Shown: positions 2,112 through 31,335 of the stretch, piece after piece
Layout: each line of letters opens with the position of its first letter
Position numbering within the stretch: position 1 is the first letter of the stretch
Source of the DNA: a virus
IMG/VR virus record: IMGVR_UViG_3300048997_000130
Span: 62,001-126,000 of that record
Length of the DNA stretch: 64,000 nt
Reading direction: 5' to 3' (one strand)
The notes under the pieces: generated by a model
Told to the model about the DNA's origin: nothing
Seen by the model: the letters and a program-made list of their open reading frames with translations, nothing else
The model's database searches: none
Program-made: the position numbers and the translations under genes

Positions 2112-5100
2112 TCAACTGCATCCCGTAGTATTTCCACAGCTACTACATAAATAGCAACTCCCGCATCTGCGAGTAATCGATCCACAATTGTTACAAGGTG
2201 GAGCATCAATATTCATCTCATTATTAGGAGATGATGATAATTCAGAAGCCGGGATTGCCGTAGGAGTTATGGACTCCGGAGTAGTAGTTGTATTCCCGTA
2301 AGCTTTATCCAAACCAGAATTTTTCCCAGAAAAATAAGTCAAATCGATATATTTAAATATATAGTCATATAGACTATCTGTAAATCGAATCTTAGGATTA
2401 CCCGTATATCCAGATGGTTCAAATTTCGTATTTACGAAACAACGCACCAATTTTTCGAGTGGAACCCCGTGCTGAATAGAAATACTAAGAAGTTTAGTAA
2501 AACTATCCACCAAACCACCCATGGTGGACCCAATTTTCCCTAATCGCACAAATACTTCGCCGGGAGATCCGTCATCATATTCACCAACAATAATATACCC
2601 AGTATGTCCTGCTATATTAAATTTATGACGCCGACTATGTGAATCTATAGGCATTTTGCGTCTATCTGTCACACGGACTTCTCGTATGACTTCCCGAACA
2701 GTTTCCTTAATGCCTGATCCGGATTCCTCTGAAAAACGATTTTTAGTCTTTAGAGGTTGTGATTTCTTGCATCCGTCTCTATATAAAGCTATACATTTGA
2801 GACCGAGTTCCCAACCGATTTTATATAAATCTGCAATTTCTTCCGGAGAAGCTGTTGTTGGTAAATTTACAGTCTTGCTTTGAGCACATGTAATGAGCGG
2901 CTGAATAGCCGCCATCATTTTTAAATGCCCAAGCGGAGGAACGCAACGACCTGATGGTCCGGAAGCCATAGCACAATCAAATATCGGTAAATGTTCTGAT
3001 AGAAGTCCTGGAGCACCTTCAATGAATGAATTTTCCTCTAGATATTCACAAATCCCTTGAATAACCGGCTCTGAATATCCAAGATTGACGAGTGCGGCCT
3101 TCACAGACCCATTCACAAGTTTCATAACACCGCCACCAACAAGCGATTTATATGAAACTAAAGCAAATGCTGGTTCAATCCCTGTCGTATTCATCCCCAT
3201 AAGGAATGAAATCGTATTATGCGACACGAATCCATTGGCAATATATGTAACATTCCCAGGGACTGATATATCATAAGTAAGTTGACGGCCTTGCGATTCC
3301 ACCGTAGTAATTTCATCGTAATAAAAAGAAAGCGCATGTTGCAATCGACCAGCAAAATCAGGAATAAACTTTTCAGCAATATGCCTTGGAATCCGACCAT
3401 CAATATATCTCATTGTAGCGATTTTGCGAAAATCATGACCTATCGGACACACTTCATTAAATAATTCTTCATCAAGATAAATATAATCTCGAGCCCATTC
3501 AGTTTTCCCAAGCACTTTATCAGCCTTACGCGAACATGTAAAACCAACACGTTCCATGAACACACTAGTGAAGTTCCGAGATGTTACCGTTAAACGATAA
3601 ACAGGTTTATCACTATAACCGCCCGTCTGTATATCAAATCTTGTTGGAATCCCAACAGCCAATAACATAGTTTGCACATCACGAATGAAAGCTTCTGATT
3701 TGTTCGTGAGAGATGGTAATCCGTTGGTTACCGAACCATCACAAGTGAATAAACCTCGCAAATAAGCCCCGTATGCTCGCTTATCATTTGTAGCAAGAAT
3801 CGCATCGGGAACATGAGCTTCGAGATGGTCTATTACTTCGATTTTTGCAAATCCAGAAATTGACCACCAAGTTTTGATTTGTGTAGAATTCAAACATAAT
3901 GATATACAGTTATCAGCTGACGTAATAGTTGGATCTTTTCCGAAAAGCTCACGAATGAATCCAGCGCAACGCTCGCGCGCGTCACAATCTTGAGCGTCGA
4001 ATGCAAATCGTAGGCCTTTATGATGCGTCGAACCGTTGGCCGCAAATAATCCACACAATTCCGCCAAACGAATATCGACAATGTTTGGAATTCTAACGCC
4101 TCTATCATAATTCGGGACTAGAGAAGCAGGTAATTTCGGTAACGAAATTTGACGACTCTCGCCGAACAGTTGATTCATACTCAACGGAACAACATCTCCT
4201 TCTTTCAAAGCATCAAAACGGCGCCATTCCCATTGTCCATTCACAATAACTTTGATTTGATGCTTTGGGGTCCCGCGAAGTTGGAATCCACGATCAGTAG
4301 TCACGCCAATAATATCATCTTCACCATTTACATAAAATTGTGTAGCTTGACGTGGTCCAGCATCTGTTTGAACCATGAATTCTACATCTTGCCATTTTTC
4401 ACCATCAGGATTCCCGAGATCTTCAATTCGAATAAGTCCAAGATCTGTTGCGATAAGCGAACCTGCGATAAGGCATCCGAGTGGGGCCTGCAGACTAGCT
4501 TGTGATATACTGAATCCATGGCGCTCACCGAGTTTAATTACTTCTTCCCAAACACTATCCGATAAAGCGCAAACATCATCACCCAATGGATCAAAAGTCC
4601 CTAAATTCCAGCGTTTAGAAATATTCCGGTTGGCTTCTCGATGCATATGCATAATATTCAACATTGCATCGCGATTTTTTTCAAATTCCGAAAATGCAGC
4701 CGTCCGAGCAGCTAATTTGGCTGACCATAAATAAGCATAACCAGTCATGAGACTTGCTAACCGAGCAGCAATAGCACGGCCTTCATCCGAATTATAAGCA
4801 TGACCAAGTTGCATGAGCAGCGATCCAAGATCGCCGTAATTGAGACCGATCGGTCTCAATGCCAACGAATTCTTAGTAATAGAGTCTGTCGGATAGTCGG
4901 CTTTGGCAATAATAGCATTTTGCGCGGTCACGAAAACGCGGACCGAATGCATGAATCGCTGCGTATTTAATTTGCCATCATCAAACATTCGAGTCAAATT
5001 GATAGCACATAAATTGCATGCAGTGTTATCGACATGAGCAAATTCAGCACAGGGATTCGTAGCTCGGATCCTCCCACTACTTGGTGTGGTGTGCCAACGA

Positions 5101-6212
5101 TTTATAGTGTCGGTAAATTGGACACCAGGATCACCGCACATCCATGCAGCCTGTGCTATTTCAGTCCACAGTTCGCGCGCTTTATATTCATGAACAACTT
5201 CTCCAGTTAATCGTTCACGCGTCTTCCACATCCCATCATCAACAACCGCCTGCATAAAAGCGTCGGGAATGCTCACTGAATGATTGGCATTTTGGAATGA
5301 TACCCATTTATATGCAGAATTAGGATCGTCGTAAGCTGCACTATATCCACATTCAATAAGATCATGCGCTCGTTTTTCTTCTATAGCTTTACATCGAATA
5401 AATCCAGGACGCCCATCCATGGTCTCTAAAATATCTGGATGATCCATATCCATAATAGCCATTTTAGCCGCATTCCGAGTGGAACCACCGCTCTTCATGG
5501 CCTTGGCGCCCTTATCAAGCTCCTCCATCCATCCAAGGGGGCCACATACATACGCCCCTGAAGAGAGTTTTTCATATGATGAGCGAATTTTAGATAAATT
5601 GGCTCCTGAACCAGAGCCACCAGCAAATATAATTTTTTCAGATTTGCTGAATTCCATGATTGAATCCAACGTATCATCAACCCCAGAAATAAAACAAGCC
5701 GATGCGGCTTGGCGTCTATCTGGAATACCTACATTAAACCAGACTGGAGAATTGAATGCACCATATTGATGAAGGAGCGCATAAATTAATTCGGCTTCAT
5801 AAATTTCAGCATCTTTAGGAGAATTAAAATATTGTTGCTCATCAGCCCATTGAGTTAGCGTACGAGCAACTCGGCTAAAAAGTTGTTTAGCCGAGGTTTC
5901 TTTCACTCCATTTACCATTCTAAAATATTTACTAACTACTACATTAATGGTTGTCTCGTTCCACCAGTCAGGGACTTCGACATCGAGTTGTTCGAATACC
6001 TTCGAACCATCAGCTCGAACCATCTTAGAATCAACTATTTTCCATTTAATACTGTCAAAAGGATGGACTCCTTCTTGTGTAAAGATACGAGTCCATTTAC
6101 CAGATTCCCTGCCTTCTTTAGAAACACCAATAATGGAATCAAATACTTTCCCTACAGGTGAATCTGATCCGGATTCGGTGTTTTTATTAAGAGCGGCGGA
6201 TCCGTTTGACAT
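2112..6212 (-). CDS. nrdJ: class II (B12-dependent) ribonucleotide reductase with intein
   Basis: Precursor of 1366 aa; reduces ribonucleotides to deoxyribonucleotides using adenosylcobalamin, needing no separate radical subunit. NrdJ landmarks: FNSPVWFNVG, SACFISGVDD, the GSGSGANLSKIR loop, SGGSTRNAAKMAIMDMDHPDI, the active-site NPCAE, and a C-terminal cysteine cluster (CNNCG, CYLCSSCG, GCS) of the type used for re-reduction. An intein occupies residues 580-999 (separate entry); splicing would give about 946 aa, normal for the family. First enzyme of the dNTP genes seen here (ThyX, PurZ, dNMP kinase). The start overlaps the holA 3' end by 26 nt, so the order of expression is holB-holA-nrdJ. 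A GAGG Shine-Dalgarno (tccgaggaggca, minus strand) precedes ATG 6212. Confidence 0.95.
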   Translation of the reverse strand: MSNGSAALNKNTESGSDSPVGKVFDSIIGVSKEGRESGKWTRIFTQEGVHPFDSIKWKIVDSKMVRADGSKVFEQLDVEVPDWWNETTINVVVSKYFRMVNGVKETSAKQLFSRVARTLTQWADEQQYFNSPKDAEIYEAELIYALLHQYGAFNSPVWFNVGIPDRRQAASACFISGVDDTLDSIMEFSKSEKIIFAGGSGSGANLSKIRSSYEKLSSGAYVCGPLGWMEELDKGAKAMKSGGSTRNAAKMAIMDMDHPDILETMDGRPGFIRCKAIEEKRAHDLIECGYSAAYDDPNSAYKWVSFQNANHSVSIPDAFMQAVVDDGMWKTRERLTGEVVHEYKARELWTEIAQAAWMCGDPGVQFTDTINRWHTTPSSGRIRATNPCAEFAHVDNTACNLCAINLTRMFDDGKLNTQRFMHSVRVFVTAQNAIIAKADYPTDSITKNSLALRPIGLNYGDLGSLLMQLGHAYNSDEGRAIAARLASLMTGYAYLWSAKLAARTAAFSEFEKNRDAMLNIMHMHREANRNISKRWNLGTFDPLGDDVCALSDSVWEEVIKLGERHGFSISQASLQAPLGCLIAGSLIATDLGLIRIEDLGNPDGEKWQDVEFMVQTDAGPRQATQFYVNGEDDIIGVTTDRGFQLRGTPKHQIKVIVNGQWEWRRFDALKEGDVVPLSMNQLFGESRQISLPKLPASLVPNYDRGVRIPNIVDIRLAELCGLFAANGSTHHKGLRFAFDAQDCDARERCAGFIRELFGKDPTITSADNCISLCLNSTQIKTWWSISGFAKIEVIDHLEAHVPDAILATNDKRAYGAYLRGLFTCDGSVTNGLPSLTNKSEAFIRDVQTMLLAVGIPTRFDIQTGGYSDKPVYRLTVTSRNFTSVFMERVGFTCSRKADKVLGKTEWARDYIYLDEELFNEVCPIGHDFRKIATMRYIDGRIPRHIAEKFIPDFAGRLQHALSFYYDEITTVESQGRQLTYDISVPGNVTYIANGFVSHNTISFLMGMNTTGIEPAFALVSYKSLVGGGVMKLVNGSVKAALVNLGYSEPVIQGICEYLEENSFIEGAPGLLSEHLPIFDCAMASGPSGRCVPPLGHLKMMAAIQPLITCAQSKTVNLPTTASPEEIADLYKIGWELGLKCIALYRDGCKKSQPLKTKNRFSEESGSGIKETVREVIREVRVTDRRKMPIDSHSRRHKFNIAGHTGYIIVGEYDDGSPGEVFVRLGKIGSTMGGLVDSFTKLLSISIQHGVPLEKLVRCFVNTKFEPSGYTGNPKIRFTDSLYDYIFKYIDLTYFSGKNSGLDKAYGNTTTTPESITPTAIPASELSSSPNNEMNIDAPPCNNCGSITRRCGSCYLCSSCGNTTGCS
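3216..4475 (-). other. intein in NrdJ with LAGLIDADG endonuclease domain
   Basis: Encodes residues 580-999 (420 aa). It begins with Cys (CLIAGSLIATD) after QAPLG and ends in VSHN before Thr, so the spliced junction is APLG-TISFLMG. Residue +1 is Thr. Two LAGLIDADG-type motifs are visible: LCGLFAANGS (Asn at 726 where an acidic metal ligand is expected) and LRGLFTCDGS (Asp 825 kept). Protein splicing looks intact; DNA cleavage by the homing endonuclease may be lost because one of the two catalytic acids is missing. Insertion is in the conserved TISF region of the reductase. Confidence 0.92.
4839..4860. repeat. 22-nt perfect palindrome inside nrdJ
   Basis: Centre GACCGATCGGTC, arms of 11 nt with no loop, inside the N-terminal extein coding sequence. 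Confidence 0.8.
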
Positions 6213-14020: not shown

Positions 14021-15202
14021 ATGCAAGCTGGCAAATTCAATATAATAATCGACGGGTTTTGGGGTTCTTCAGGAAAAGGTAAGATATCTACATACCTCGC
14101 CGATCAATATAATTCTACATTCATATCATCGGCCAATTATCCGAATGCAGGTCATAGTGCTGTGTTTGAGAACGGCGTCAAATTCGTTGCCAAAGCCATT
14201 CCGACTTCAGCCATTCTCAAGAAGGTCAAAGGCACAGACATACAGTGTTTCCTTTCTCCTGGATCTGGATTCAATCCCATACAACTCTTAAAAGAATGGG
14301 AAGAATGCGACAGACCAAACATATTTATCCACGATCGAGCCTCAATAATGACTTCAGAACATGCACTTCGGGAGCGAGAAGGTTCGGATTCGACCAAACA
14401 CATTGCCTCCACCATGCAAGGTTCTGGAGTCGCTATAGCAGATAAAATAATGCGTAGACCGGATGTTCAATTAGCAAAGAATTGGGATCCGAAAGTGACC
14501 CTTCATGATAATGATCATCTTGAATCTGTGTTTGGGGATGATCTCGAGCGGATCCGAATTACGGATGGAATGGAATTCAGGAATTTAGTTCATTCTATGG
14601 TTAATAACGGGCAAACTTGGCTCCATGAAGGTTCCCAAGGTTATTCGTTGTCCATAGATCATGGGTCACAATATCCATATACTACGAGCAGGAACTGCGG
14701 AGTTCAAGCCGCCATGGATTATATGGCGATCCCACCTCAAATAGTTGGTGATGTATATTTGAATCTTCGTACTTATCCTATTCGAGTAGGGAATGTTGTT
14801 GAAAATGGACAACAACTCGGATACTCAGGTGATTTTTATCCGGATTGCACGGAACTCACTTGGAAAGAAGTTGCCCGGCGAGCTGGAATGCCTGATGAAG
14901 AAGCTCAAATGCTAGCTGAACGCGAGCGGACTACAGTGACAAAACGAATTAGAAGGGTTTGTAATTTTTCGTATCTTGGATTACAAGATGCCGTGAGAAC
15001 GAATGGTGCGACCAAACTTTCCATGAATTTTATTCAATATATTGATTGGTCTGACGCTGGTTTACGAGGAGGAAAAGAAGCTTTCAAGAAGCTTTCCAAG
15101 AAAAGCAGAACTTTCATTGATAAAGTCGAAGAAGTTGCTGGAGTCCCGGTTGTTCTTATTGGAACAGGCGCCAGTCATGAAGAAATCATTAATTTGCTGT
15201 AA
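14021..15202 (+). CDS. purZ: PurZ-type adenylosuccinate synthetase homologue (2-aminoadenine pathway)
   Basis: 393 aa, shorter than cellular PurA (about 430). The P-loop reads GFWGSSGKGK: Ser 16 takes the place of the PurA catalytic Asp of GDEGKGK. Phage PurZ enzymes that join Asp to dGMP, giving N6-succino-2-amino-dAMP for Z-DNA, also lack that Asp; it is said to clash with the guanine amino group. Other family landmarks are kept: NAGHS (His 45), MQGSGVA, HEGSQGYSLSIDHGSQYPYT, the Arg-rich KRIRR loop, and a C-terminal GTGASHE. The product would need host PurB and kinases. DatZ, MazZ and a PolA/DpoZ polymerase are not in this window. The next gene starts directly after the stop. Confidence 0.8.
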   Translation: MQAGKFNIIIDGFWGSSGKGKISTYLADQYNSTFISSANYPNAGHSAVFENGVKFVAKAIPTSAILKKVKGTDIQCFLSPGSGFNPIQLLKEWEECDRPNIFIHDRASIMTSEHALREREGSDSTKHIASTMQGSGVAIADKIMRRPDVQLAKNWDPKVTLHDNDHLESVFGDDLERIRITDGMEFRNLVHSMVNNGQTWLHEGSQGYSLSIDHGSQYPYTTSRNCGVQAAMDYMAIPPQIVGDVYLNLRTYPIRVGNVVENGQQLGYSGDFYPDCTELTWKEVARRAGMPDEEAQMLAERERTTVTKRIRRVCNFSYLGLQDAVRTNGATKLSMNFIQYIDWSDAGLRGGKEAFKKLSKKSRTFIDKVEEVAGVPVVLIGTGASHEEIINLL

Positions 15203-15865
15203 ATGGCAAAATCTAAGCATGGGCATTATGTTGGAAATAAACCAAGCCCAGAATATTATACGTGGCGTTCTATTAAAGCAAGATGTTTAAATCCAAAACA
15301 TCATAATTATGATGTTTATGGTGGAGCTGGAATAATTTTAGATGAAGTCTGGGCATCTAATTTTGAAATATTCTTACGTGATATCGGGCTTCGTCCTTCA
15401 CGGCATCATACTTTAGATAGAATCAAAAATGATTTAGGATATGTTCCAGGCAATGTTAGATGGGCAACTCGACACATTCAAAATCGGAATCGCAGTGATA
15501 ATCATTGGATTACGTTTAATAATGAGACATTATGTCTCAAAGATTGGGCTAATAAATTAGGTTGTACGCCCAATGCAATACGTACAAGGGTATTACGTGG
15601 TTGGTCTTGGGAAGCTGCGGTTAGTACTCTACCCAATCCAAAATTACAAACCAAAAAGAAAATATATAATCAATTAGAGACAATCGATAAAGATATTAAG
15701 GTACATATTACACAACAAGCAATAAAATTATATAATGGCGGACAATTGATTCGATCTATAACGAAACATGAATTAAATAATGATAAATCGTTGTCGAATT
15801 CGATATCCAATATTATTGATATAATTCGTGTTTTAGAATCAAATACTATAGCTACGCCGATTTGA
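15203..15865 (+). CDS. HNH-type homing endonuclease-like protein
   Basis: 220 aa. Residues 15-90 follow the phage HNH pattern: YYTWRSIKARCLNPKHHNY, DVYGGAGIILDEVW, TLDRIKNDLGYVPGNVRWAT, then QNRNR. Residues 100-145 (LKDWANKLGCTPNAIRTR) form a helix-turn-helix of the kind attached to such nucleases. Likely a selfish, free-standing nuclease inserted behind purZ with no intergenic space. The last 70 residues are Asn/Ile-rich and AT-biased. Confidence 0.75.
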   Translation: MAKSKHGHYVGNKPSPEYYTWRSIKARCLNPKHHNYDVYGGAGIILDEVWASNFEIFLRDIGLRPSRHHTLDRIKNDLGYVPGNVRWATRHIQNRNRSDNHWITFNNETLCLKDWANKLGCTPNAIRTRVLRGWSWEAAVSTLPNPKLQTKKKIYNQLETIDKDIKVHITQQAIKLYNGGQLIRSITKHELNNDKSLSNSISNIIDIIRVLESNTIATPI

Positions 15866-16415: not shown

Positions 16416-16975
16416 TATGGTGACTTCTTTTTGCGTTTTAAATGAATACCAATTTGATCGGTATTCTCAATCATATATTTATGAACTGAATTGAAATATC
16501 CAGCTATCGGATGTGCTGCATCTTTTCGCATTAATCGTTCTAAAATCAACATATTTTCATAATCGGAAAACAACCAATTTTCAGTTATCGGGACTCCGGG
16601 ACTAATTTGACTCCAAACATTTCCAAATGGCAGCATTATTAATACGTATTCAGTCTTTTGGAAATGCGGAGGACTAGAAGTCGGTATGAATTCTTCACGG
16701 CGTTTAACCGAAAAAAAGACTCCAGGAGGTAAATCTATTCCGTTAGGAGTTTGAGTTACCCATCGTTTAATACTTACCCACTTAACTTCAGGGGTTTTTA
16801 TACCTGACAGTTTTCGACATTTTAAAGAACAACTATATAACGCTGATGGTGATAGTTCACATGTCCATGGTCGGAAGTCCGATGGTAAATCGGTATTTAC
16901 ATGTAGTTCATTAAACCAAAAAACTCCAAGCGATGTTATGCGTTGTTGTAATGTTGGTTTTTGTTCTTCATCCAT
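16415..16975 (-). CDS. hypothetical protein, 186 aa
   Basis: Start taken at ATG 16975 (MDEEQKPT) because upstream codons would run into thyX. Divergent from thyX with 16 nt between the start codons, so the two share a promoter region that lies partly inside each gene. Not recognised; C-terminus basic (KRKKKSP). Confidence 0.6.
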   Translation of the reverse strand: MDEEQKPTLQQRITSLGVFWFNELHVNTDLPSDFRPWTCELSPSALYSCSLKCRKLSGIKTPEVKWVSIKRWVTQTPNGIDLPPGVFFSVKRREEFIPTSSPPHFQKTEYVLIMLPFGNVWSQISPGVPITENWLFSDYENMLILERLMRKDAAHPIAGYFNSVHKYMIENTDQIGIHLKRKKKSP

Positions 16976-16991
16976 AGAAAGACTCCATAAA

Positions 16992-18335
16992 ATGACGCAT
17001 AGATCAGCCAATATCTTCTGTCTTACCGATTCAGAAGGGAGATTATTATCTCCAGCTGTACAAGCTACTGTACTAGCAAAATATTCAAGATCCCCATTAT
17101 CAGCTCAAGAATTACTTGCGCAGTTAACTGAAGAAGAAGCTGATAAATTCCAAAGCAAATGGGTTGTTGGATATGGTCATGACTCCGTTGCAGAATTGGC
17201 AACAATACCAATATGTTTAGAAGGTGTATCTATCATAGCTTCCAAGATTCTAGAGTCTTGGCCGCGCGCGGCTTATTCTGAAAAAAGCACTCGATATCAA
17301 ATTTTTTCGAAGGATTCGTTTGTTACGCCTCCTGGCGCTCCTGATACAATGAAACAGTTCGCCGGACGATTTTACGAAGCTTATGCTGCATTAAATGTTC
17401 GAATGATTCGTAAAATCGCCGAACTTGTAGGTGATGATCCGGAAAATCCTAAAACAACTACTAAGGCACGAGCGTTCGATAACGTCCGTTATTTGCTGCC
17501 AGCCGGAACTGGCACTAACGTGGCTGCTGCAATGAACTTACGTGACGTGCGCGACATGATAACAACGTTGCGCGGTCATACCAATAGTGAATTCAAAGCC
17601 ATTGGTGAAGGAGTTTATACTGCTGCCATGAGGATGGCTCCGGCACTCATCAAATATACTGAACCCGATACTTTTTCATTACCAGTTAAAAGCTTAGGAG
17701 CAATAAACTCGGCATTCTCATATGAACATCCACAGCCGTGCGTCAATATTTATAATTCAGAATGCATATCTGATCCTCAAATGGAAATGTCCATTTTTAA
17801 AGCCGCTGTCCAAGATAGACATACTATGAATTGGGAAACATTTAATCAACACATGTTATCTCGACCTTCTCATGCTGGAGTCCCAGATATTTTTAAAACT
17901 ATCAAAATCTCGTTCGAAATTATTATGGATTATGGCGCATTCCGCGATTTACAAAGGCATCGGCGTTGTGATCAATTCACAGAACCCTTCCGATCCGATT
18001 ATGGATATGTGGTCCCTGAAGATATAGTGGGAACCGATTTGGAACCGGATTATCGGTCAGCCATGGAATCTCTATCGTCATATCAAGACGAACGCGTAGT
18101 CCACGATCCGGATTGGTTCCAATATATGATTCCGCTTGGATATTTACATAGATCAATCTTTCAAATGGATTTGAAAGAACTCTATTACATAACTGAACTT
18201 CGTACTAAACCACAGGGACATATTTCGTATAGAAGAATTGCTTATGAAATATATCTGTTAGCACAACAGCGATTCCCGGAGCTTATGCAATGGTGTCGTG
18301 TTGTTAAGCCCGAATCTGTAGGTTTACATACATGA
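16992..18335 (+). CDS. thyX: flavin-dependent thymidylate synthase, long form
   Basis: 447 aa from ATG 16992 (MTHRSANIF); upstream in-frame codons overlap the divergent gene. ThyX methylates dUMP to dTMP using FAD and methylene-tetrahydrofolate. The protein is about twice the classic length. An N-terminal half holds YSEKSTRYQ and FDNVRYLLPAGTGTNVAA. A C-terminal half holds DLQRHRRCDQFTEPFR, in the place of the RHRxxSxxxxSxR ThyX signature, and YITELRTKPQGH. Known long ThyX proteins have this two-half design. The gene fits with NrdJ and PurZ as a dNTP supply set. Confidence 0.85.
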   Translation: MTHRSANIFCLTDSEGRLLSPAVQATVLAKYSRSPLSAQELLAQLTEEEADKFQSKWVVGYGHDSVAELATIPICLEGVSIIASKILESWPRAAYSEKSTRYQIFSKDSFVTPPGAPDTMKQFAGRFYEAYAALNVRMIRKIAELVGDDPENPKTTTKARAFDNVRYLLPAGTGTNVAAAMNLRDVRDMITTLRGHTNSEFKAIGEGVYTAAMRMAPALIKYTEPDTFSLPVKSLGAINSAFSYEHPQPCVNIYNSECISDPQMEMSIFKAAVQDRHTMNWETFNQHMLSRPSHAGVPDIFKTIKISFEIIMDYGAFRDLQRHRRCDQFTEPFRSDYGYVVPEDIVGTDLEPDYRSAMESLSSYQDERVVHDPDWFQYMIPLGYLHRSIFQMDLKELYYITELRTKPQGHISYRRIAYEIYLLAQQRFPELMQWCRVVKPESVGLHT

Positions 18336-20138: not shown

Positions 20139-20732
20139 TTAATCTATAATTAATTCTCGGAGTCTGGATTTTATGTATTCCATTCGTTTTTCATAATCCA
20201 AGTGATTTTTACGATATACTCGAATTATATTTTGCGATAAATTTGCTTGCTCGAAATCTTGATTCCAAGGTTGATCTAACATCAACACTAGACCACGAGG
20301 TCTCCATTCTAACCATCGAGTGATATATGGAGGCCAATCATCAAACAAAACTTTCCCATATTGACCACCTTTATCTTGTGTAATAGTTACACTAGCATCA
20401 GGGAGATGTTCCATACACCATTCATATTTTTCAGTCCACGCTGTACTACACCGCTTAGGTCCTTTAGTTAAGACAACCAAAATAAATTGCAATTCTCTGA
20501 ATAAATCAATTATTTTTATGCCTTCTTCAATGAGAGGAAGACTTTTCCAATATCCAGGATTATTTTTAATCAACTCCATTCGGCGCTCAATATAATCAGG
20601 AGCTCCTTCTATCTTGGTAACTGGTGATTCAAATGGAGAACGCAGTTCTTCCAATTTAGCTAACATAGTGGAATTATAATCCACCATGGTCCCATCCATA
20701 TCAATCAAAGCGATGAGTTCAGATTTTTTCAT
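20139..20732 (-). CDS. HAD-family 5'(3')-deoxyribonucleotidase-like protein
   Basis: 197 aa. Motif I is DMDGTMVD at residues 11-18, motif II is VVLTKG, and a basic residue plus VLFDDW form the last motif. The layout matches the small 5'-nucleotidases that dephosphorylate dNMPs. It could adjust nucleotide pools. A second related gene is at 30784-31335. Confidence 0.65.
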   Translation of the reverse strand: MKKSELIALIDMDGTMVDYNSTMLAKLEELRSPFESPVTKIEGAPDYIERRMELIKNNPGYWKSLPLIEEGIKIIDLFRELQFILVVLTKGPKRCSTAWTEKYEWCMEHLPDASVTITQDKGGQYGKVLFDDWPPYITRWLEWRPRGLVLMLDQPWNQDFEQANLSQNIIRVYRKNHLDYEKRMEYIKSRLRELIID

Positions 20733-22269: not shown

Positions 22270-23181
22270 ATGGAATTGCCCAAACATTTTATGGTATGTA
22301 TATCAGGATATTCTGGAACTGGAAAAGACGAGGTTGCCAAAAGATTAATAGCGAAATTCGGAGCTTTCCAAACAGGACTCGCAGATCCAGCCAAGCGCCA
22401 TATGGCGGATTTATATGGATTTAGTGAAGACCAATTATTCGGTCCTTCGGCTTCTCGAAATGCCGGAGATCTTAGATATCCTAAAGATTCATTTTTTGAT
22501 AAGAATTTGACAGTATCTGAATTCTGTTCTGAGAATTATCCGAAAGATTTGATCGGAAACTTAGAACCAGGAGTTATTTATTGGCAAAGTTCTGGTCGCG
22601 GATTCCATCTTCCTAATAAACCGGCGCTTCCATATATACCACTACGTTTAGGAAGTGGTATAACACTAATTCCGGATAGGCATCCATATTTTTGGCTATC
22701 GCCTCGTGAAGCATTACAAAAATACTGTGAAATCATGAATTCAATGTATTTAGATACCTGGATTCGTAAAGGTATTGAAATCCATAAAAAATTAGCAGAG
22801 TTAGATACTAATAACAAAATATTTACTTATAAATATTCGCCTATGCTTGGGTTAGAATTCAATACTTTAGGTACACGACATCGAGCGGTTGGGAATAGTC
22901 CCATCATCACTTGTTTTGCTGATTTCCGGCATAAGCACGAAATTAATTTAACTCGCAAGACTACAGATTTGATTCCTGTCCTTGTTCGGATTAAAAGGCC
23001 TTCTGTTCCCGATCCACCATATGATCATAGATCAGAAGTTGAACAATCAACCATTCCAGATTCAGTATTCGATTTTATAATCAATAATGATAGCACATTG
23101 GAGAATCTATGGACCAATATCGATAATATGGTGGATGATTTCACAGCATCTCAATGGGAATCTTCAGGAGACACACTATGA
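22270..23181 (+). CDS. deoxynucleoside monophosphate kinase-like protein
   Basis: 303 aa. P-loop GYSGTGKD at residues 13-20, then LADPAKRHMADLYGFSEDQ, which resembles the T4 gp1 type dNMP kinase (dNMP to dNDP). ADFRHKHEI lies in the second half. T4 gp1 accepts modified dNMPs, so this enzyme may serve the unusual base predicted from PurZ, but that is inference. First gene of an operon with the DHH gene (ATGA overlap). Confidence 0.65.
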   Translation: MELPKHFMVCISGYSGTGKDEVAKRLIAKFGAFQTGLADPAKRHMADLYGFSEDQLFGPSASRNAGDLRYPKDSFFDKNLTVSEFCSENYPKDLIGNLEPGVIYWQSSGRGFHLPNKPALPYIPLRLGSGITLIPDRHPYFWLSPREALQKYCEIMNSMYLDTWIRKGIEIHKKLAELDTNNKIFTYKYSPMLGLEFNTLGTRHRAVGNSPIITCFADFRHKHEINLTRKTTDLIPVLVRIKRPSVPDPPYDHRSEVEQSTIPDSVFDFIINNDSTLENLWTNIDNMVDDFTASQWESSGDTL

Positions 23182-30292: not shown

Positions 30293-30787
30293 ATGTATAT
30301 AAATAGATATTATGAAGCGGTTTCCAAACTAGACAATGAACAACTATTAAGACTTACTGTTTTAGAATGGCTCTACGACAAGTCCCCAGCTGCGAGCAAA
30401 ACAGGTCGTACTTATTTAACTGCATTGGCTGTTTTAGGTTGCTCGCTTCGGAATCCAAATTATCCGATATTTATAACAGATCACGCTGGAAACGGCACGG
30501 TCGTTAAACAAAATTTGTTTAATGAAATTTCTAAATTAATAGGAATCGTGGATGAAAAAAATTTCATCCAATTTGGAACTCAAATTATGTTTAAATTGCC
30601 TGAAGAAGAACAACCCGACCAGCATATGATTCCGAATATCGCTCCATCTTTGCGCGGGGTTTTTAGACGACTGCTTGTTAAATTGCTTAAAGACGCAGTA
30701 ACATTAGTTATGCGCAACGGACTTTCTTACGAAGAAGTCTGTATTGCGACAAACGAAGTGATTATACTAGGAGTCCAAGACTCTTGA
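30293..30787 (+). CDS. hypothetical protein, 164 aa
   Basis: Not recognised. The N-terminal 110 residues (EWLYDKSPAASKTG, then GRTYLTALAVL) could be a winged-helix-like fold. Its stop overlaps the TTG start of the nucleotidase gene. Confidence 0.55.
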   Translation: MYINRYYEAVSKLDNEQLLRLTVLEWLYDKSPAASKTGRTYLTALAVLGCSLRNPNYPIFITDHAGNGTVVKQNLFNEISKLIGIVDEKNFIQFGTQIMFKLPEEEQPDQHMIPNIAPSLRGVFRRLLVKLLKDAVTLVMRNGLSYEEVCIATNEVIILGVQDS

Positions 30788-31335
30788 AGAAAAGAATTTT
30801 ACTTGACGTGGATGGAGTGCTTGCTGCATTCCATGAACGCGCTATTAAAGAAATACGAGAACTGTTTGATTTAGATATAACAATGCAAGATTTCCCGGAT
30901 TGGGACGTTACTCATGTTCTGGAAAATGAAGAAGACAGGAGTTTATTAAATTCTCGAATTCATGAACCCGGATGGGCAACGTCTCTCGAGCCTTATCCAC
31001 AAGCTATCCATGCGGTCCAAGAACTGCGTCGGAACAATATTGAAATAATGTTCGCGACCAGTCCCAATCAACATTCAGATACTTGGATGCGAGAGCGAGA
31101 CAAATGGCTAATTCGGCACTTTGGTATGAAATTTGACGAAATTGCGCATATTCATAAAAAATATTGGCTGGTTGCTGATATGTTGGTAGATGATAAAATA
31201 TCTAATGTTCTGATTTATTCTCAACATCATCCAGGAAAACATGCGTTGTTGTGGGATCAGACTTATAATAGGAAGGACATACAATGCAAGCGCGCTCTGT
31301 GTTGGGACAAAGATGTTCTAGCTGTATTTATCTGA
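30784..31335 (+). CDS. HAD-family deoxyribonucleotidase-like protein
   Basis: 183 aa from TTG 30784 (TTGA overlap with the previous stop). Motif I LLDVDGVLAAFH, motif II MFATSP, conserved KKYW and LVDDK for the last motifs, as in 5'(3')-deoxyribonucleotidases. Distinct in sequence from the 20139-20732 protein, so two nucleotidases of this type are present. Confidence 0.75.
   Translation: MKKRILLDVDGVLAAFHERAIKEIRELFDLDITMQDFPDWDVTHVLENEEDRSLLNSRIHEPGWATSLEPYPQAIHAVQELRRNNIEIMFATSPNQHSDTWMRERDKWLIRHFGMKFDEIAHIHKKYWLVADMLVDDKISNVLIYSQHHPGKHALLWDQTYNRKDIQCKRALCWDKDVLAVFI

Follow-up and report, generated by a model that had tools for sequence, protein, structure and literature searches.

In the literature searched, phages described as carrying 2-aminoadenine (Z) in their DNA are small sipho- and podoviruses that fall into seven groups, and two separately assembled accessory sets have been distinguished around their synthetase, PurZ (PMC12884076). 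The closest described systems are those of phages phiVC8 and S-2L, whose PurZ occurs with DatZ and MazZ, and of the Arthrobacter phage Wayne group, whose PurZ0 occurs with DutZ and DmtZ. In both clades of the polymerase DpoZ the Tyr of helix O is replaced by Phe (PMC8599892). No report of jumbo phages with Z was found in that literature, which lies mostly outside subscription journals. A PurB is encoded by jumbo phage PhiMa05, and the gene table in the paper on it names no PurZ.

The window analysed here, a stretch of 64,000 bases corresponding to bases 62001-126000 of a 196,676-base IMG/VR virus record, contains an intact PurZ-type gene. Its product was aligned with PurA of E. coli, Azospirillum, a haloarchaeon and Pyrococcus, and with characterised PurZ and PurZ0 proteins. 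The gene and its motifs are as follows:

14021..15202, plus strand: purZ-type gene, candidate 2-amino-deoxyadenylosuccinate synthetase of 393 aa (intact ORF; motifs, family matches, alignment, fold model)
14063..14083, plus strand: P-loop GSSGKGK, aa 15-21, within WGSSGKGK (alignment with E. coli and Pyrococcus PurA and S-2L and phiVC8 PurZ)
14066-14068, plus strand: codon of Ser16, in place of the PurA catalytic Asp (same alignment as the P-loop)
14144..14155, plus strand: NAGH, aa 42-45, catalytic His retained (alignment)
14654..14680, plus strand: IDHGSQYPY, aa 212-220 (translation, alignment)
14930..14956, plus strand: TTVTKRIRR, aa 304-312, aspartate-binding loop with its Arg pair retained (alignment; 62-member alignment)
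15026..15040, plus strand: NFIQY, aa 336-340, ATP-type PurZ motif where PurA has the TKxD guanine-binding motif (alignment)

The original prediction had singled out a Ser at the site of the PurA catalytic Asp, with NAGH, the IDHGSQYPY segment and the Arg loop kept, and all of these were recovered in the alignment. Ser16 aligns with Asp13 of E. coli PurA (numbering without Met) and, since it does not vary across the 62 members aligned, is not a chance substitution; NFxxY is nearly invariant among them. Catalytic residues (His, Thr, Gln and Arg) are retained despite the changes from Asp to Ser and from TKxD to NFxxY. At the position of NFIQY, E. coli PurA has TKLD, which serves recognition of the GTP base; PurZ0 and Pyrococcus PurA have TM-LD(Q/K) or a near variant at this site, whereas ATP-using PurZ has NFxxY.

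The best family matches of the window protein are PHROG 1211 (5e-58) and the NCBIfam PurZ model NF038379. With 195 bits the latter is the best-scoring NCBIfam model, although its curated cut-off of 300, an annotation boundary that reflects no biochemical trait, is not reached; phiVC8 PurZ scores 397 bits with the same model. Sequence matches in the PDB are PurA and PurZ chains including 7odx, with Pyrococcus PurA and S-2L PurZ in the lead. The predicted structure has the PurA/PurZ fold along its full length, with a pLDDT of 95.8 when the model was built from the 62-row alignment (55.5 when built from 6 sequences). Its top Foldseek matches are PurZ of S-2L (7odx) and phiVC8 (6fm1), with Pyrococcus PurA nearly level, and Z scores to 6fm1, 7odx and 5k7x are 41-44 across 325-333 residues.

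In a maximum-likelihood tree of 89 rows, only four of them PurA and four PurZ0, the window protein falls within a jumbo-phage clade, clade A (15 rows, support 100/92), which joins a second jumbo set in a group of 29 rows (100/99). This jumbo clade is nested in the PurZ branch (100/99), with PurA and PurZ0 outside. An earlier tree, for which many more PurA rows were used, joined PurZ0 with PurZ instead (PMC12884076), a difference that leaves the position of the window protein untouched. Among the bacterial and archaeal genomes scanned, a PurZ-like gene turned up on one Gaiellales contig; in the tree it groups among phage sequences. The identification as PurZ is well supported, and the ATP-type NFxxY motif, the tree and the fold carry it beyond the evidence first offered for it. 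The window protein is very likely a genuine ATP-using PurZ, belonging to a deep clade.

PurZ of phiVC8 and S-2L, at 30-33% identity to the window protein, shares with it the Ser at the catalytic Asp, NFxxY, NAGH, the Arg pair, the fold and the side of the tree, whereas the jumbo proteins retain an archaeal-type C-terminal segment that these two lack; the jumbo set also differs in the very large size of its phages and in an NCBIfam score under the cut-off. PurZ0 of the Wayne group has the Ser as well, but it carries a TM-LDQ segment as in archaeal PurA and lies on the PurA side of the tree. Pyrococcus horikoshii PurA has the same fold, short form and C-terminal segment, and differs in the catalytic Asp and in its GTP-type segment. 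Flavobacterium phage MaF61 and Bacillus phage vB_BpsS-140 have PurZ-like proteins (28-35% identical by tblastn) that share Ser and NFxxY with the window protein; both fall outside the jumbo clade, MaF61 on a long branch. MaF61 (loci L088:21116-22132 and L015:31667-33022), an isolated phage of 168 kb, encodes besides this protein a PurB and an HD hydrolase distantly like DatZ (E 2.6e-5), which makes it a cultured candidate for testing for Z-DNA.

Class II RNR, ThyX and clamp-loader parts had been named as the context of the gene, and each was confirmed by domain matches or likeness; the record also encodes a primase and helicases. The nucleotide metabolism genes of the window are:

2112..6212, minus strand: intein-containing class II (B12-dependent) ribonucleotide reductase (domain matches)
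16938..18335, plus strand: ThyX (Pfam PF02511; synteny, stays beside purZ in relatives)
20139..20732, minus strand: second NT5C-like nucleotidase (PF06941, E 5.7e-7)
22270..23181, plus strand: deoxynucleoside monophosphate kinase-like protein (PF21448, E 1.6e-5, just under the cut-off; conserved in relatives G001, G004 and G005)
30784..31335, plus strand: NT5C-type 5' deoxynucleotidase (PF06941, E 2.8e-17)

The reductase could supply deoxyguanine nucleotides, and the kinase-like protein is a possible dZMP kinase. DatZ, MazZ and DpoZ, reported as missing from the window, are missing from all 196,676 bases: profiles for DatZ, MazZ-1/DUF550, MazZ-2, DpoZ and DutZ gave no match in the record, nor did profiles for the jumbo HD, MazG-like and PurB proteins, and searches for family A, B and C polymerases found none there.

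Scans of viral contigs returned many purZ relatives, several of them on contigs of 257-436 kb. The closest long relative, G001 (307,777 bases), has a purZ 68-70% identical to that of the window and a long block syntenic with the window's record. It also has a row of genes for a datZ-like HD protein, a MazG-like protein, IMP dehydrogenase (guaB) and GMP synthase (guaA), a PurB, and a PolA about 10 kb from the HD row. The HD protein of G001 matches PHROG 7076 'dATP triphosphohydrolase' (1.6e-20). HD genes with this match occur in clade-A records G001, G007, G009, G010, G019 and G021, the same six in which PolA was found, and G030 has a homologue; in G020 the only HD gene is a divergent one directly after PurB (E 0.009). 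A MazG-like gene adjoins the HD gene in six of six neighbourhoods read. Co-occurrence of genes within clade A is confounded by common descent. PurB is present in 8 of 24 records and in both jumbo clades, GuaA in 3 of 24 and IMP dehydrogenase in 6 of 25; G001, G014 and G020 have the GuaB/GuaA pair, and IMP dehydrogenase occurs further in G010, G012 and G030.

The clade-A records divide by size. Every one that is at least 257 kb long has an HD gene, and all eight HD-positive records with purZ, counting G020 with its divergent gene, are of that length. Neither HD gene nor PolA was found in the purZ records no longer than 240 kb, namely that of the window, G006, G008, G011, G023 and G024; no clade-A record of up to 240 kb holds purZ and the HD block together. 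Conversely, HD-positive records of up to 184 kb (G026-G029) have no purZ; G026, in whose 184 kb purZ was not found, has an HD gene with 100% identity to the one in G001. Because short records hold one or the other, purZ and the block of HD, MazG-like and PolA genes appear to be distant from each other on a large genome. The records share descent and none is closed, and the window's record is most likely a fragment of a jumbo phage and for this reason without the block; the genome of its phage is probably larger than 250 kb. Among the three options first raised for the missing partners, namely that they lie elsewhere, that replacement is partial or that the enzyme serves another purpose, the size split fits the first best. 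In clade-B jumbo records of 370-408 kb purZ is present and no HD match was found.

The partner genes of the relatives resemble the Z set in their arrangement and fail strict membership of DatZ and DpoZ. All nine HD proteins of clade A have the metal ligands and the phosphate-binding residues Arg19, Lys81 and Lys116; E. coli YfbR has them too, so they are not diagnostic for DatZ. DatZ has Ile22 (or Leu/Met), which excludes the 2-amino group, and a strictly conserved Gln29, whereas the jumbo HD enzymes have Ser/Thr and Glu at these positions, so that their specificity for dATP is uncertain. In the HD tree they form one group apart from the DatZs (93/98), with YfbR unplaced. The MazG-like proteins match MazZ-1 and MazZ-2 unconvincingly (best E 0.03-0.08 with local profiles), and their Pfam MazG-like match is just under the cut-off; that of G021 (L168:10196-10909) bears a multiubiquitin-type domain at its C terminus (PF14452, E 1.6e-6). 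PolA of G001, G007 and G019 retains the Tyr steric gate where DpoZ has Phe.

From the sequence, its motifs, the predicted fold, the tree position and the gene sets of relatives we infer the substrates, the pool control and the presence of Z in the DNA. Guanine nucleotides would come from the ribonucleotide reductase and the host or, in some relatives, from phage GuaB and GuaA, IMP dehydrogenase and GMP synthase then feeding GMP. A MazG-like enzyme would turn dGTP into dGMP, from which PurZ, with aspartate and ATP, would form N6-succino-2-amino-dAMP; Ser16, in place of the Asp that acts on N1 of IMP in PurA, would leave space for the 2-amino group of guanine. Host PurB, or in some relatives a phage PurB, would then act as the lyase that frees fumarate and gives dZMP. 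Kinases would convert this to dZTP, which would be incorporated into phage DNA instead of dATP, partly or wholly. The block missing from the window's record would contribute a YfbR/DatZ-family HD phosphohydrolase that lowers dATP, together with the MazG-like enzyme and PolA. Sequence lends strong support to the PurZ step, and the remaining steps are modelled on S-2L (PMC8342488, PMC8065100); Z is likely to be present in the DNA of the window's phage. We consider it probable that an ATP-type PurZ acting on dGMP, Z built into phage DNA and a record that is a jumbo-phage fragment together explain the locus.

The prediction of Z in the DNA thus stands in its PurZ part, which motifs, tree and fold bear out; the relatives' partners are not clear DatZ, MazZ or DpoZ, so that the further step to full replacement stays an inference. 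Given the Ser/Thr at position 22 of the HD enzymes and the ordinary polymerase, a serious rival is that PurZ is active but replaces A only partially, with neither a dATP-specific DatZ nor a Z-selective polymerase. Z would in that case be a minor base, though one that could block certain restriction enzymes. The loss of both Ile22 and Gln29 from the HD enzymes, the retained Tyr of PolA and the lack of an HD match in clade B agree with this. On the other hand, the non-selective polymerase of S-2L does not stand in the way of full replacement there (PMC8065100), so that a phage can do without DpoZ, and the pairing of HD and MazG-like genes is kept in every clade-A neighbourhood read; on balance we regard partial replacement as rather unlikely.

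An ordinary archaeal-type adenylosuccinate synthetase, raising the supply of AMP from IMP and Asp, would fit the structural nearness of Pyrococcus PurA, the PurB of some relatives and the low NCBIfam score, but every member has Ser for the catalytic Asp, the GTP-binding TKxD is gone, the tree sets the protein apart with full support, and the guaB/guaA and HD/MazG-like partners point toward GMP and dGMP and away from AMP, which makes this improbable. Highly improbable in our estimate is that the enzyme makes 2-amino-adenylosuccinate or a ribo-Z nucleotide for some other purpose, such as an RNA or signal nucleotide or a base subject to further modification. S-2L PurZ is indifferent to the 2'-OH of its nucleotide donor (PMC8342488), so sugar selectivity in the family may be loose, and these phages encode proteins with Mom-like domains; yet class II RNR, ThyX and dNMP kinase-like genes surround purZ, and PurB is found in both jumbo clades. 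The reading preferred here remains that of a PurZ that provides Z for the phage DNA.

The window's phage is intein-rich. Besides the reductase (window 2112-6212), LAGLIDADG or intein domains occur in portal-like, terminase and RecD2-like proteins of the same record (L004:7791-12206, L004:13105-16707 and L005:15750-19277). Directly 3' of purZ lies an HNH/NUMOD-like gene (window 15203-15865), by its sequence a probable free-standing homing endonuclease, whose homologue in G004 also follows purZ. In G020 (314,886 bases), purZ is a single 807-aa frame (L197:1492-3915, minus strand) with an insert from a Cys directly after NAGH to HN|T, probably an intein at the PurZ active site. Beside it (L197:1-1449, minus strand) is a homing-endonuclease-like protein with a C-terminal Mom-like domain judged by eye, and a similar protein in the window's record (L005:3432-5258, minus strand) has such a domain by profile match (PF25680, E 2e-20). 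From about 32000 to 64000 of the window (about 94-128 kb of the record) GC rises from 0.37 to about 0.50 and long ORFs are few, with phage genes shared with relatives on either side. Recoding of TGA as Trp in this part was considered and dropped, since depletion of the TA dinucleotide (0.50 observed/expected) suffices to explain open frames.

As judged from sequence, the PurZ of jumbo phages is a deep-branching version, new beside that of small phages, and some of its phages encode other plausible steps of a Z route. We put at about even the chance that this uncultured jumbo clade makes Z-DNA with a third, separately assembled set, consisting of PurZ, an HD and MazG-like pair distinct from DatZ and MazZ, an ordinary PolA and sometimes PurB, IMP dehydrogenase and GMP synthase. 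If so, members with the last three would largely encode the way from IMP to dZMP themselves, save for a few kinase and phosphatase steps. The relatives carry a warning that partner genes can be hidden when jumbo genomes are fragmented, and they offer enzymes of interest: a phage PurB that perhaps favours a 2-amino deoxy substrate, and the HD and MazG-like enzymes. They also provide a natural case for asking whether an ordinary PolA can sustain Z-DNA, and with a PurZ clade in phages as large as 436 kb, Z-DNA would reach genomes about ten times larger.
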